Assembly (NCBI GenBank): GCA_014872815.1
Contig: WKFK01000012.1
Span: 310,001 to 374,000 of the forward strand
Reading direction: 5' to 3'
Source of the DNA: Paracoccaceae bacterium
Lineage (GTDB): Bacteria; Pseudomonadota; Alphaproteobacteria; Rhodobacterales; Rhodobacteraceae
Length of the DNA: 64,000 nucleotides
Translations under genes and position numbers: made by a program
Part shown: piece after piece, positions 131-6,432 of the stretch
Position numbering within the stretch: the stretch's first letter is position 1
Layout: every line of letters begins with the position of its first letter
The notes under the pieces: generated by a model
Seen by the model: the letters and a program-made list of their open reading frames with translations, nothing else
Told to the model about the DNA's origin: nothing
Databases searched by the model: none

Positions 131-1789
131 TTAGTTGGCTTGGCGACGCAGGAAGGCTGGGATTTCAATCCGTTCCTGATCTTCATCCATCTGAGGCGCC
201 GCTTCGTTGGACTGAACAGCTGGCTGCTGACGCACCGGCTGCTGCGCGGCTTGGGGCATCCCCTGCTCCGCACCATGGCCGGTCATCTTGTTGATCAGCG
301 AGTTGATGCCAAAGCGCGGACGCTCTTCTGCGCGTGGTTCAGGCGCTGGGGCCGCCGGACGGGCCGGAGCCGCTGGTGCCTTCTCCACAGCAGCCTGCAG
401 GCGCTGCATCAGCTGCGGCGTGGGGGTGCCAGGCGCTGGACGCTGAGGTGCGACAAACTCTTGTGGCTCCTCTTCGAACATTTCTGGCTGCACAGCCTGC
501 GCGCGGGTCGGCTGATATGCCGGAGGAGGCACATCTGCACCTGCGGACGCCGCGTCAAAGGCAGGCGCTGTAGGGGCTGTTGCAACGGCTGGCGCTTCCT
601 CTTCGAAGATATCTTCCATCTGCTCCTGCGCGGCCACCTGCTGGGTGTCCATTTGCGGGAAGAGGGATGGTTCAGACACAGGCGCTTCAGGAGCCGCCTC
701 AACCGGAGCCGCCGGAGCCACCTGCTCTTCTGCGGGCGCCTGCTGCGCAGTCTCGATGGTTGGCGCAGTGGTCAGTGGCTCACGCATGGAACGACGCGGC
801 AAAGGCATCGCAGAAGTGGTTTCCGCCGCATCGATACCGGTTGCCACAACGGACACCCGCATGCCGCCGTCCAGCGTTTCGTCCATGGTGGAACCCACGA
901 TGATGTTGGCGTCTGCATCGACTTCTTCGCGAATGCGGTTGGCCGCTTCGTCCAGTTCGAACAGGGTCAGGTCGTGACCGCCGGTGATGTTGATCAGAAC
1001 ACCCTTTGCGCCGCGCAGCGAGATCTCGTCCAGCAGCGGGTTGGCAATTGCCTTCTCTGCCGCCTGGATGGCGCGATCTTCACCGTCAGCTTCGCCGGTG
1101 CCCATCATCGCTTTGCCCATCTCGTCCATCACAGCGCGTACGTCTGCGAAGTCGAGGTTGATCAGGCCCGGACGCACCATCAAGTCGGTTACACCTTTCA
1201 CGCCCTGATACAGAACGTCGTCGGCCATGGAGAAGGCTTCGGTAAAGGTAGTTTTTTCGTTGGCCAGGCGGAACAGGTTCTGGTTTGGAATGATGATCAG
1301 CGTGTCGACCATCTTCTGCAGCTGTTCCACGCCCTCTTCGGCCTGACGCATGCGCTTTGCGCCTTCGAATTGGAACGGCTTGGTCACAACACCTACGGTC
1401 AGAACACCCAGCTCACGCGCTGCCTGCGCGATGATTGGCGCGGCGCCGGTACCGGTACCACCGCCCATACCGGCGGTGATGAAGCACATGTGCGCGCCTG
1501 CGAGGTGATCCACAATCTGCTCGATGCTCTCTTCGGCAGCGGCTGCACCAACGGTTGCGCGCGCCCCAGCGCCCAGACCTTCGGTGACCTTCACGCCCAA
1601 TTGCACGCGGCTTTCAGATTTACTCTGCTGCAGAGCTTGCGCGTCGGTGTTCGCAACCACGAACTCCACGCCCTCAAGCTCTTTGTCGATCATGTTATTG
1701 ACCGCGTTGCCACCTGCACCGCCAACACCAAACACGGTGATGCGGGGTTTCAGATCACCCTCGTCGGGCATCGTCAGATTCAATGTCAT
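131..1789 (-). CDS. ftsZ: Cell division protein FtsZ
   Basis: Tubulin-like GTPase that polymerises into the cytokinetic ring at midcell. The 552-residue product has the N-terminal nucleotide-binding [10 protein letters not shown] segment, the tubulin signature GGGTGTG near residues 109-115 and the T7 loop NLDFADVR near 211. A linker of about 210 residues rich in Pro, Ala, Gln and Glu follows, then the conserved C-terminal peptide ending [12 protein letters not shown] that binds FtsA and other partners. The linker is much longer than in E. coli, as in other alphaproteobacteria. An ATG at 1789 is preferred over a GTG at 1819 because AGGCGGA sits 6 bases before it. It is the last gene of the dcw cluster. 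Confidence 0.98.
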
Positions 1790-1848
1790 AGAACTGTCCG
1801 CCTGTTGTTTACCCGCCACAGCGGGCTATTTTCTGCCTACTCACCCCC

Positions 1849-1877: not shown

Positions 1878-2093
1878 CCCAAAAAGCGCATTTCGCCACA
1901 AAATATGGGGTAAAAATGTGAAAACTAGCGGCATCTTGCCGAAACCGCCAGATTTTGCGGGGCAAGACAAGTGTCACACAACACTAAACAGACACCCAAG
2001 ACGCAAAGCGCGCCGCAGGAGTTTGCTATGTTTATGTTTGGAGACCACTGCTCGGCGCTCCGGACCCGCGTTTTGATCGCGGTTATCCGGAAC

Positions 2094-2108
2094 TTAACCA
2101 AGGCTTAA
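2094..2108. promoter_or_regulatory. CtrA-type binding site (TTAA-N7-TTAA)
   Basis: The bases TTAACCAAGGCTTAA form a perfect TTAA-N7-TTAA motif, the consensus for the response regulator CtrA. It lies 40 bp past the ftsA stop and about 305 bp before the ftsZ start. In Caulobacter CtrA binds the ftsZ promoter and represses it; use of this site here is inferred. Confidence 0.6.
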
Positions 2109-2147: not shown

Positions 2148-3482
2148 TCACCAATTCTCTTTGAACCACCGCACCGCCTTGCCAAACGGCCGTGTGTTGT
2201 AACGATCCACCGGCAGGTCGAAGTCCCACCATTCGTCCTGCGGATGTGTTGCGTAGAGGCACATGCCCACGGTTGCGGCAAAGCCTGGGCCGGTGGCGGC
2301 CTGTGGCAAGCCATGCACACGCATCGGACGGCCAAGGCGGACCTGCTGCCCCAGAATCTTGGAGGCCAACCCATCGAGCCCCGGGATCTGGCTTCCGCCG
2401 CCGGTCAAAACAATCTGCTGGCTTGGCAGATGCTCAAAACCCGCCGCATCCAGACGCGCGCGCACTTCTTCGAGGATTTCCTCAACACGAGGGCGCATGA
2501 TGCCAATCAGTTCCGCCCGGCTCACGGTACGACGGTCATGTTCCCAGTCGCCAGTGTCTCCGGACAGTTCGATCATATCGCGGTCATCCATGCCGGTGGC
2601 GACAACGCCGCCGTAGAAGGTCTTGATGCGTTCCGCCGTCGCGGTTGGCACCTGCAGGCCCATCGAGATGTCGCCAGTCACGTGATCGCCGCCCATACGT
2701 ACGGTGTCCGCAAAGATCATGTGTTTCTTCATGAAGATCGACAGGCTGGTCGCCCCGCCGCCCATGTCGATACAGGCTGCGCCGAGCTCTTGTTCATCTT
2801 CCACCAACGCCGACAGGCCAGAGACGTAAGCCGAAGAAGCAATCCCCGCGAGTTCGAGATCGCAGCGGCGAATACAATGTACGAGGTTCTGCACCGCTGC
2901 CTTGTCCACGGTCAGCATGTGCATGTCAGTGGTCAAAGTCTGCCCCACCTGCCCACGCGGATCGCCCAGGCCAGAGCGGTGGTCGAGCGCAAAGTTCACA
3001 GGCTGCGCATGCAGCACTTCACGGTCCGCGCCGTAGTCCGGCACATCACAGGCCGCGAGCACGCGGGCCACATCCTGATCGTCAACGGTTTGGCCCTCAA
3101 GCTCGATTTGCCCGTCCAACCCATAAGAGCGCGGTTCTGCACCAGAGAAACAGGCGATCACATGATCCACTCGGATTTTTGCCATCTTCTGCGCCGCCTG
3201 CACCACCGTGCGAATGGCGCGTTCGGTTTCCTGCATGGTGTCTATTTCGCCAAACTTCACACCACGGGACATAATGGTGTTGGCGCCAATCACACGATAG
3301 CCAGACTGCCCAGCCATGGAGCCAATGCCTTCGACACTTGCCAGACGGTCGGTTCCATCAAACCGCAACACCAGACAAGCAATCTTGGACGTCCCCACAT
3401 CCAAAACCGCAATCACACCGCGCTGCATGGCTGCTTTGCGCATCGCGCGCATGGCGCGCTGGCTCTGATAAAGCTCTGTCAT
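2148..3482 (-). CDS. ftsA: Cell division protein FtsA
   Basis: Actin-like ATPase that anchors FtsZ filaments to the membrane and recruits later division proteins. The 444-residue product shows the phosphate-1 motif DVGTSKIACLV near residue 30, the 1C domain in the middle, the second phosphate and adenosine motifs (IDMGGGATSLS, VLTGGGSQIPGL) and a C-terminal basic, aromatic tail (VRWFKENW) typical of the amphipathic membrane helix. The ATG at 3482 overlaps the ftsQ stop as ATGA, so translation is coupled; an ATG at 3521 inside ftsQ is less likely. It lies in the ddl-ftsQ-ftsA run. Confidence 0.97.
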   Translation of the reverse strand: MTELYQSQRAMRAMRKAAMQRGVIAVLDVGTSKIACLVLRFDGTDRLASVEGIGSMAGQSGYRVIGANTIMSRGVKFGEIDTMQETERAIRTVVQAAQKMAKIRVDHVIACFSGAEPRSYGLDGQIELEGQTVDDQDVARVLAACDVPDYGADREVLHAQPVNFALDHRSGLGDPRGQVGQTLTTDMHMLTVDKAAVQNLVHCIRRCDLELAGIASSAYVSGLSALVEDEQELGAACIDMGGGATSLSIFMKKHMIFADTVRMGGDHVTGDISMGLQVPTATAERIKTFYGGVVATGMDDRDMIELSGDTGDWEHDRRTVSRAELIGIMRPRVEEILEEVRARLDAAGFEHLPSQQIVLTGGGSQIPGLDGLASKILGQQVRLGRPMRVHGLPQAATGPGFAATVGMCLYATHPQDEWWDFDLPVDRYNTRPFGKAVRWFKENW

Positions 3483-4357
3483 TGTCCCACTGTCCCTGTC
3501 GTCATCTGGCTGGCTTGCCACCAGGCATCTACGGCCTGTTCTGTTAGTTGTACCGTGGGCCGATGTGCCAAACGCATATCGACCACTTTGATGTCCCGCT
3601 CCAAAAGCTCTTCGGCGTGGTTCAGCGCGACCACGCGGTCCAGCGCTTCCTCCGCACCTCGCTCCGGCAGTTTGATCCGCTGCCCCCGATCCAGAACCAA
3701 ATCCCAGCGCCGCTCTCCCACGCGCACCAGACCAATCACCCGATCCGCCAATGGGGCTGCCGCCGAAAACAGGCGCAGCGCTTCTTGCACATGGAGCTCC
3801 GCCCCCTCGCCCGCGATCAATGGCATCTGCGCATGCGCTGCGCGGGAAATGGCTGGGCCGGTGACGTTGCCTTCCGGATCGACCAGCGTCAGCCCCTCAT
3901 GGGTGCGCCACACCACAACCGGCGTACGCTCCGCGACGTTGAGTTCCAGAATGCCGCCCGGACGCACTCGCACGGCCACGCTGGCAATCGCAGGCAGCTC
4001 TTCGACACGTTCGCGGATCGCTGGCAGGTCCAGATCAAAGGAGCTTGTTGGGAAGCTCAATGAAAGAATGTCGCGGATGTCTTCAGACGTACCTTGGGAC
4101 GCGCCATCCACGGTCATCGCAGACACCATAAACTCCGGCCGCGTGGCGATCTCACGGCGCAAATCGTTCACCGCCAGGTTCAGGCTCTCGCGCCGATCCG
4201 CGTCAGACAACCAGACCGTCGCGGCCCCAGCCACAACCACAAACGGCACCACCACCCGCAAGAACAGACGGAACAGTGGGGTCAACATCAACCGCTCAAA
4301 CCGGTACGCCCACCGGGAAGGCGCATTATCGCGGCGGCCTGTCGTCAACGGTCGCAT
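3479..4357 (-). CDS. ftsQ: Cell division protein FtsQ
   Basis: Bitopic membrane protein that links the Z ring to septal wall synthesis through FtsL and FtsB-type partners. The 292-residue product has a short basic cytoplasmic N-terminus, one membrane segment near residues 25-50 ([20 protein letters not shown]), then a periplasmic POTRA-type domain and a beta domain ending near [18 protein letters not shown]. The start at 4357 is chosen because GGAGG lies 7 bases upstream, and this overlaps the ddl 3' end by 13 bp. FtsQ is poorly conserved, so position between ddl and ftsA supports the call. Confidence 0.94.
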
Positions 4358-5265
4358 GAAGCGTCCTCCACCATCCAGGCACAAAAGTCAGAGAAGGACA
4401 TCCCGATAAGTTCGGCCTGCTCGGGGCTCAGCGATGTTGGCGTCATACCCGGCTGGGTGTTCACTTCCAGAATGATCAGCCCGTCCAAACCGCGGCTTTC
4501 GTCCCAGCGGAAATCGGTGCGCGACACACCGCGACAGCCCAATGCCTGATGCGCGCGCACGGCGTAGTCCATGCAGGCGTCATAAATCTCTTGCGGAATG
4601 TTGGCCGGCACCTCGTGGCGGGAGCCTCCCTCAGCGTACTTGGCCTCATAGTCATACCAACCATCGGTGATGATATCGGTCACGCCAAGCGCGCGATCCC
4701 CCATCACCGTGGTGGTCATTTCACGTCCCGGTGCGAAGGTTTCCACCATCACCTCATCGGGCATGGTTTCCGCCAGTTGCGGCGGCGTGTTGGCACCTTC
4801 GTTGACAATATAGATGCCAACCGAACTGCCCTCATTGTTGGGTTTCACCACATAAGGCGGCGCCATCACATGACGCTTGGAGACCTCTGCCTTGTCGGCA
4901 ATCACGCTCTCCACAACCGGCAGCCCCGCCTGCTTAAACGCTTCTTTTGAGCGCTGTTTGTCCATCGCCAAAGCAGACGCCAGCACGCCGGAATGCGTGT
5001 AAGGAATGCGCAACCATTCCAGCAGACCTTGCACACAGCCATCTTCGCCCCAGCGGCCATGCAGGGCATTGAACACAACATCCGGCTTGATCTCTTGCAG
5101 GCGAGCAACCAAATCGGGGCCGGCATCGACCTCGACAACGTCCAATCCTGCGTCCCGAAGGGCAGCGGCGCATTCACGCCCTGACGACAGTGACACCTCT
5201 CGTTCTGCTGAGGGGCCGCCCATCAATACTGCCACCTTGGGGTGTGTCTGCTCTGACAGTCCCAC
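4345..5265 (-). CDS. ddl: D-alanine--D-alanine ligase
   Basis: ATP-dependent ligase that makes the D-Ala-D-Ala dipeptide used by MurF. The 306-residue product has the N-terminal [19 protein letters not shown] motif, the ATP-grasp core with [13 protein letters not shown], and the metal-binding end [16 protein letters not shown]. The length fits the family. It is the first gene of the ddl-ftsQ-ftsA run and has a 240-bp upstream gap with a CtrA-type site, so it probably begins a transcript distinct from murB. Confidence 0.97.
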
Positions 5266-5472
5266 TGTGCCTCAATGTCCCGGACCCTTTTTGGCCCTGT
5301 TCTTATGCGAGCCCTTTACGGACTCAGTTATCACAGCCACGTTGGACTGCTCTTTTTATCATCAGGCACGAAATGCCTGCTCGGGGTGGGCACATGGCCC
5401 TGCGCTCAATTGGGTCTTTGACCCTGAATTCGGGCTTTGCGCCCTTGTTTTCTTAGTGGTCTCAGTTCTTGG

Positions 5473-5487
5473 TTAATGACCGCTTAA
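5473..5487. promoter_or_regulatory. CtrA-type binding site (TTAA-N7-TTAA)
   Basis: TTAATGACCGCTTAA, followed by C, is a perfect TTAA-N7-TTAA(C) motif about 210 bp before the ddl start, in the 240-bp gap after murB. In Caulobacter CtrA activates ftsQA, and this is the matching position. A GACTC (GANTC) also lies nearer to ddl at 5321-5325. Confidence 0.6.
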
Positions 5488-5505
5488 CGGGTCCAAACTG
5501 AGTTA

Positions 5506-6432
5506 TCATTCCGTCGCCGGTTCGCCGACGCGCATGATTTCCCACTGTAGGTCTATTCCGCTGTTTTGGAAAACCCTTTTTCGAACTTCCTCGCCAAGAT
5601 TTTCCAAATCTGCGGCAGTTGCGTCACCGGTGTTGATCATGAAGTTGGAATGCATCTCGCTCATCTGCGCCCCACCAACGCGCGCACCACGCATGCCGGC
5701 ATCATCAATCACTTTCCACGCCTTCAGATCATGCACGTCATCCGCCTTCCCCGTCGAAGAAAAGCCCGCCGGATTGCGGAAGGTGCTGCCCGCGCTGCGG
5801 TCTTTGGTTGGCTGTGTGGCGTCGCGTTTGGCAAGTTGATCTTCCATGCGCTGCGCCAGCTCTTCAGGATCCCCGGATGGGCCTTTTAAAACCGCCTCCA
5901 CAATGACCCAGCCTTCGGGCAAATCCGACTGACGGTACTGGAAGTTCAGATCTTCCGCCGTGAGCGTCACAATCTCACCGGCTCGCGTCACTGCCGTGGC
6001 CTCAACAAACACATCCGCTGTGTAGCTGCCATAGCAGCCCGCATTCATCCGCACCGCGCCTCCAATGGCACCCGGAATGGTCCGCAAGAAGGTCAAATCC
6101 ACGCCCGCCTGCGCCGCTTTGCGCGCCACATGGGCATCCAACGCCGCCACACCGGCCCGCACCCGATTGCCCTCAATCTCTATGTGATTGAAACCACGCC
6201 CCATCCGGATCACAACGGCCCGCAAGCCGCCATCACGTACGATCAGGTTGGAGCCAACGCCCATCGGAAAAACGGCCACATCTTCAGGAAGCGCCTTCAG
6301 GAAAGTGGCCAGATCGTCCACATCCGCTGGCTGGAACAAATAGTCCGCCGGACCGCCCACACGCAACCACGTCAGGCCGGAGAGCTCTTTGCCTTCGGTC
6401 AACTTTCCACGTGGGGTGGGCAATGTGGTCAT
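5506..6432 (-). CDS. murB: UDP-N-acetylmuramate dehydrogenase MurB
   Basis: FAD enzyme that reduces UDP-GlcNAc-enolpyruvate to UDP-MurNAc with NADPH in the cytoplasm. The 308-residue product has the FAD-binding run [26 protein letters not shown] and [16 protein letters not shown], then the C-terminal catalytic segment GSTFRNPAG. Its length is that of the short, type II MurB form. It lies 77 bp downstream of a small membrane-protein gene and upstream of the ddl control region. Confidence 0.97.

Follow-up and report, generated by a model that had tools for sequence, protein, structure and literature searches.

In Caulobacter, CtrA acts on ftsQ or ftsQA and on ftsZ (PMC3751295, PMC2217572, PMC2877005). 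Activation of ftsQ(A), as given in the original prediction, is stated in PMC2217572 and PMC3751295, and PMC7200025 words it as 'potentially, ftsQA'. Among the Rhodobacterales strains examined by 2014, CtrA was not found to be essential; its loss in Rhodobacter capsulatus did no harm to growth and division but impaired flagella, chemotaxis and the genes of the gene transfer agent, and the CtrA phosphorelay of Dinoroseobacter shibae affects morphology and division (PMC4046655). In a term search, 'fts' and 'ddl' were absent from the main text of PMC4046655 and 'ftsZ' from PMC6473078. No fts or ddl gene is named as a CtrA target of a Roseobacter in the openly licensed literature searched, and no paper on a CtrA binding site in Shimia was found there, both of which are weak evidence of absence. 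For the same gene cluster in Rhodobacter sphaeroides, a 5' leader processed by RNase E has been described together with the sRNA UpsM (PMC8625941, PMC5089854).

The window (the whole stretch of DNA that was analysed, 64 kb) comes from a member of the genus Shimia and carries murB, ddl, ftsQ, ftsA and ftsZ in this order on one strand. The products of murB, ddl, ftsA and ftsZ score above their NCBIfam cut-offs, and ftsQ lies below the cut-off of the FtsQ models.

5506..6432, minus strand: murB, open reading frame above the NCBIfam cut-off
4345..5265, minus strand: ddl, D-Ala-D-Ala ligase, GTG start, proposed first target gene (NCBIfam NF002378, 400 bits, cut-off 243)
3479..4384, minus strand: ftsQ (NF008043, 51 bits, below the cut-off of 366)
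2148..3521, minus strand: ftsA (TIGR01174, 307 bits)
131..1819, minus strand: ftsZ (TIGR00065, 409 bits)
5472..5488, minus strand: CtrA-type full site GTTAA-N7-TTAAC, with TTAAC on both strands (motif match)

The gap between murB and ddl (5266-5505) is 240 bp long, and a single occurrence of TTAA-N7-TTAAC in it had been predicted correctly. It lies in GTTAATGACCGCTTAAC (5472-5488), one place that reads as the full site GTTAA-N7-TTAAC on either strand, as TTAATGACCGCTTAAC on the plus strand (5473-5488) and as TTAAGCGGTCATTAAC on the minus strand (5487-5472), the sense strand of murB and ddl. Along the sense strand, the murB stop is followed by 18 nt, the CtrA-type site, 206 nt and the GTG start of ddl. 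It is the sole such place in the 64 kb, where dinucleotide shuffles of the window give an expectation of 0.07 matches; for a window chosen blind, this is only mildly unusual. We give about an even chance to the view that this is a real, good-quality, clade-specific CtrA-type site which is plausibly functional.

The host encodes CtrA itself (L109:1447-2163, minus strand; NF045991, 430 bits against a cut-off of 350). A cluster of TTAA half-sites, GTTAACCTTTAATCGTTAAGGTTAAC, lies 35-60 bp upstream of the ctrA start (L109:2198-2223, minus strand), as autoregulation would lead one to expect. Genome-wide, the spacing N7 gives 19 matches at 17 places as opposed to a mean of 4.9 for the eleven other spacings; spacings 2 to 13 yield 73 matches in total, and the largest number besides N7 is 11, at N6, a spacing reported to be functional in R. 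sphaeroides (PMC6180460). With a background near 5 matches for each spacing, noise should account for about one in four of the 19 exact matches. The N7 excess is a stronger argument for a meaning of the motif than its rarity in the window, and the exact N7 sites of the host genome are more likely to be CtrA sites than noise. A reversed-pattern control gave 19 matches against 32 reversed ones, which at face value speaks against any excess; as words of the AATT and TTAA types may differ in frequency, it was not relied on, and the spacing control took its place.

Among the 16 other exact places, twelve are intergenic and nine fall within 100 bp of a called start, the gene calls being rough. Genes found downstream of such sites encode a hybrid histidine kinase and a PAS-HisKA-HATPase-receiver kinase, which from its domains we infer to be of the CckA type, as well as a response regulator, a protein with GGDEF and EAL domains, an RTX protein and a glycosyltransferase that carries an MshEN domain. 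Several of the N7 sites are placed ahead of genes of the kind found in CtrA regulons. Because ctrA is present, N7 is in excess and the neighbouring genes are of this type, the exact site between murB and ddl, too, is probably a CtrA site rather than noise.

For its distribution, murB-ddl gaps were collected from the best 80 of 561 matches, of which L040 and L093 had no ddl found beside murB; the remaining 78 made up 103 gaps together with those of 25 Shimia, and removal of 7 duplicates left 96 (25 from Shimia and 71 others). Exact TTAA-N7-TTAA occurs in eight of the 25 Shimia gaps, all of them long (235-242 bp). The gaps of L008 and L009 are also long (232 bp) but lack an exact site, and the 15 remaining Shimia have short gaps (74-120 bp), likewise without one. 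With up to one mismatch, a site is found in all ten long-gap Shimia (0.5 of 10 in shuffles) and in none of the 15 others. In L008 and L009, this is a one-mismatch TTAC/TTAT-N7-TTAA at a shifted place, with 4 nt between it and the murB stop instead of 17-18 nt. The ten long-gap species form one clade in a nine-gene tree (support 100), which splits into a group of seven that includes the window's species (100) and a group of S. marina, L008 and L009 (89). The 71 distinct gaps of the other loci, drawn from the best 80 of the 561 matches, include none with the exact site and three with a one-mismatch site (1.2 in shuffles).

The scan of orthologous gaps that had been suggested thus gave a divided answer, the motif being kept throughout the long-gap clade and absent from the 15 other Shimia. 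The wider expectation of a conserved division-gene target in Roseobacters did not hold, because the motif is missing from sister species beyond the long-gap clade, with no exact site in the 15 other Shimia or in the 71 other distinct gaps (best 80 of 561 matches). For the same reason, a control through this site would be dispensable. The best explanation of this pattern is that a single clade of ten Shimia species acquired the site, or was alone in retaining it.

Other exact sites of the genome were compared at orthologous places, for exact sites only and in three of 24 relatives (S. marina, G005 and G006). Six of the 17 places, the murB-ddl one included, are exact in S. marina; of the 16 others, five are exact in G005, five in G006 and three in S. 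marina, G005 and G006 alike. The murB-ddl site is absent from G005 and G006 and thus behaves like the clade-level sites and not like the more widely shared ones. At L146, L147 and L153, exact TTAA-N7-TTAAC is present at orthologous places in the host's own genome, S. marina, G005 and G006, which makes these sites candidate core CtrA targets of Shimia. A match between L144 and L168 was judged to be a paralogue and was not counted.

The ftsZ end of the gene block was compared over division regions of 14-19 kb (under 19 kb in L116, L118, L126 and L134).

2083..2108, minus strand: two overlapping CtrA-type sites upstream of ftsZ, an exact TTAA-N7-TTAA (2108-2094) and a one-mismatch TTAA-N7-ATAA (2097-2083)

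Upstream of ftsZ, at a place that the original prediction does not mention, lies the only other exact TTAA-N7-TTAA in the division regions of the 25 genomes, and it is present in the window and in five relatives. If one mismatch is allowed, all ten members of the clade have a site 275-291 bp before ftsZ (1.5 in shuffles), and the same test in the other Shimia gave two of 15 (2.1 in shuffles). These companion sites in the same clade suggest that CtrA may act at either end of the block. Almost at this position, 265-279 bp before ftsZ, a perfect DnaA box, TGTGGATAA or TTATCCACA, is found in seven of the 25 Shimia (L124, L125, L128, L130, L131, L135 and L138). None of these seven has an exact CtrA-type site ahead of ftsZ; in L128, the DnaA box and a one-mismatch CtrA-type site overlap. 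It is conceivable, although we regard it as unlikely, that CtrA gained control of ddl-ftsQ-ftsA-ftsZ from either end roughly when the acquisition of a hairpin array made the murB-ddl gap at least twice as long, that the output of the block is set jointly by CtrA and the structured leader, and that the CtrA-type site of ftsZ, in a position occupied by a DnaA box in other clades of Shimia, reflects a swap of cell-cycle regulators.

The hairpins of the leader are features of the murB-ddl gap in their own right.

5461..5502, minus strand: possible RNA hairpin H0, stem CTCAGTT...AACTGAG around the CtrA-type site (-12.0 kcal/mol, z -2.26 in L001)
5432..5444, minus strand: predicted hairpin H1, GGGCGCAAAGCCC; pairs kept in 10/10 long-gap species, with one G-U in L008
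5412..5424, minus strand: predicted hairpin H2, GGGTCAAAGACCC; one pair with a two-sided change in 3/10 species, one broken in 2/10
5388..5400, minus strand: predicted hairpin H3, GGGCCATGTGCCC; two pairs broken in 1/10 species
5363..5379, minus strand: predicted hairpin H4, CAGGCA...TGCCTG; pairs mostly invariant
5333..5350, minus strand: predicted hairpin H5, GCAGTC...GGCTGT; A-U to G-C in 2/10 species
5309..5325, minus strand: predicted hairpin H6, GAGTCC...GGGCTC, from the consensus fold
5282..5297, minus strand: predicted hairpin H7, GGGCC-AAAAAG-GGTCC, family-wide, 8 nt before the Shine-Dalgarno sequence
5270..5273, minus strand: Shine-Dalgarno sequence GAGG of ddl inside conserved GGGACATTGAGGCAC (column conservation)

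The sense strand of the gap is predicted to form a series of small hairpins (z -3.56; each of 200 shuffles was less stable). For the ten species, the RNAalifold consensus comprises seven hairpins and one long-range helix; six of its 40 pairs are changed on both sides in at least one species, five of them within hairpins, and most pairs hardly vary. The last hairpin has counterparts throughout the family. After removal of two of the 96 gaps, which had no recognisable Shine-Dalgarno sequence, 84 of 94 have, within the 42 nt that precede it, a hairpin with a score of 9 or more (13% of shuffles), usually at a distance of 7-8 nt and often followed by GGGACATTGAGGCAC (5268-5303 of the window, minus strand). 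A covariance model, R1, built from 40 sequences including the window's, gave 51.6 bits at ddl and 23.1 bits for the next-best match in the same genome (150 of 2203 candidates scored), and it matches 10 of 17 loci outside its training set (E up to 1). The runner-up lies at L202 (about 1501-1534, 23.1 bits, E 0.087) just before the start of a 393-aa open reading frame that by eye resembles an aminotransferase; the match there may be due to chance. Rfam returned nothing for 5200-5600 of the window (E up to 5) and nothing at gathering score in the loci of six relatives. The hairpin preceding ddl is a candidate for an unnamed RNA element of this gene, and the leader hairpins point to a control or processing of ddl mRNA that would be independent of CtrA.

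Column counts around this hairpin used 82 gaps (14 of the 96 were skipped), 40 of which were aligned in A2. As its loops differ in length, RNAalifold recovered no more than 4 pairs on A2. The idea of a promoter in a constant position ahead of this family-wide hairpin was discarded, since the 82 gaps have only an A-rich linker and neither a -35 nor a fixed -10 element. Scoring hairpins before start codons in the window alone was not discriminating, with 9 for ddl and at least 10 for 11 of 37 roughly called genes, and only the comparison across species carries information. In a scan of six-letter words, CAGGCA was the most over-represented: 48 of 96 gaps have it, as opposed to 6.4 in shuffles. 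In 30 of 96 gaps, CAGGC is part of a hairpin loop. Hairpins with the loop ACAGGCA follow murB in several genera, for example GCGACC-ACAGGCA-GGTTGC (L013, L045, L047, L059, L061, L076, L081 and L098). They were rejected as a dispersed repeat, the exact 17-mer being present once per genome in six of seven genomes and absent from the seventh; four extra copies with one mismatch are spread over three genomes.

As the most likely mechanism, phosphorylated CtrA would bind the site and adjust the transcription that enters ddl-ftsQ-ftsA(-ftsZ) from a promoter inside the gap between murB and ddl. In an activating geometry, the right half-site would lie over the -35 region and be followed by a weak -10 element.

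5450..5455, minus strand: weak candidate -10 element TAAGAA (TAATAA in L003-L007), 17 nt after the right TTAA half-site, 3/6 matches to TATAAT

With this -10 element (5455-5450), transcription might start near 5443 and give a leader of about 180 nt with seven predicted hairpins, and CtrA would act at either end of the block, much as it acts on ftsQA and ftsZ in Caulobacter. No convincing promoter was seen, which counts against this: the candidate -10 hexamers match 3-4 of 6 positions, S. marina has not retained TAAKAA, and a sigma-70 scan came up with no promoter at the gap. The site, its retention in the clade, the presence of CtrA and the excess of N7 in the genome are observed; we infer CtrA binding, the position of the promoter, the sign of the effect and a link to the cell cycle. 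The distance of 206 nt to the ddl start counts against this reading when set beside the nine of 16 other exact places at most 100 bp from a roughly called start, and so do the displaced one-mismatch sites of L008 and L009 within the clade and the fact that the ten species of one clade represent one evolutionary event.

A somewhat unlikely but possible alternative is that TTAA-N7-TTAAC arose by chance in the ancestor of the clade and was kept by recent descent, being functionless or bound without effect. The noise among the exact matches estimated from the spacing background would allow for this; seven of the eight exact-site species are close kin, with murB 94-97% identical to the window's, and the exact site is missing from the other genomes of the genus and family that were examined. 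In a column test, nine of nine site columns were invariant as opposed to 16 of 36 neighbouring ones (p 0.002), a result biased by the choice of the eight exact-site rows. Against chance stands S. marina, which retains both TTAA halves and the N7 spacing despite a diverged left flank and spacer (2 of 7 spacer bases kept), and so do the similar sites ahead of ftsZ in the same clade.

It is improbable, in our view, that the inverted repeat works as RNA and resembles a CtrA site incidentally, forming the first hairpin of a structured intercistronic leader for mRNA processing, stability or ddl translation. The stem of H0 does surround the site (z -2.26 in L001 and -2.51 in L004), the fold of the whole gap is more stable than all its shuffles, the last leader hairpin is family-wide, and short-gap Shimia have hairpins after murB as well (z -2.16 in L013, -2.62 in L014 and -3.91 in L011, only -1.04 in L020). 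However, H0 is no better than shuffles in S. marina (L010, z -0.30) and L007 (z -0.62), as is the corresponding fold in L009 (z -0.17; z -1.73 in L008), and H0 is missing from the RNAalifold consensus of the ten species. The TTAA halves are invariant in the eight exact-site species and have no compensatory change, which points to recognition as DNA. Lower still is the probability we assign to CtrA binding as a repressor or as a roadblock to read-through from murB, a variant in sign of the best explanation whose odds overlap with it. A site 18 nt past the murB stop in a probable operon with no good -10 element at activating distance would agree with repression, but in Caulobacter the repressing half-sites overlap the -10 element and the activating ones lie near -35 (PMC6180460). 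Altogether, we consider it an evenly balanced question whether the site is a genuine CtrA-type site that provides a CtrA input at ddl-ftsQ-ftsA(-ftsZ) specific to one Shimia clade.

If this reading is true, a clade in which CtrA was moved to, or kept on, genes of cell division would offer a natural test of how its targets change, and the pattern of presence and absence across close Shimia offers ready-made comparisons. In R. sphaeroides, the promoter upstream of ddlA in the same cluster is bound by a two-component regulator in ChIP-seq; that regulator is CenR and not CtrA, a search of the authors for its motif at this promoter found none, and an indirect effect or artefact was left open (PMC9275681). 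The UpsM leader of R. sphaeroides is the nearest published parallel found to the leader hairpins of ddl. The CtrA regulon of D. shibae and Rhodobacter covers motility, the gene transfer agent and quorum sensing and has the same regulator and consensus, and kinase and c-di-GMP genes with sites are common to it and to the window's genome. Hyphomonas neptunium is an example outside Caulobacter in which CtrA directly controls division genes, ftsAKQZ (PMC7200025); control there is experimental, whereas the present case is known from sequence alone. The footprinted sites of Caulobacter crescentus are of the same TTAA-N7-TTAA form and lie upstream of ftsQA and ftsZ (PMC3751295, Table 2), and by our own count the ftsQA sequence of that table agrees with the sense strand of the window at 16 of 21 positions. 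The ftsQA site of Caulobacter was footprinted and is one base off the canonical motif (text and table of PMC3751295 differ on the half concerned), whereas the site of the window is exact, lies upstream of ddl and was read from the sequence. On the best reading, CtrA input at division genes is thus of a kind known from Caulobacter and Hyphomonas, and would here be specific to one clade.
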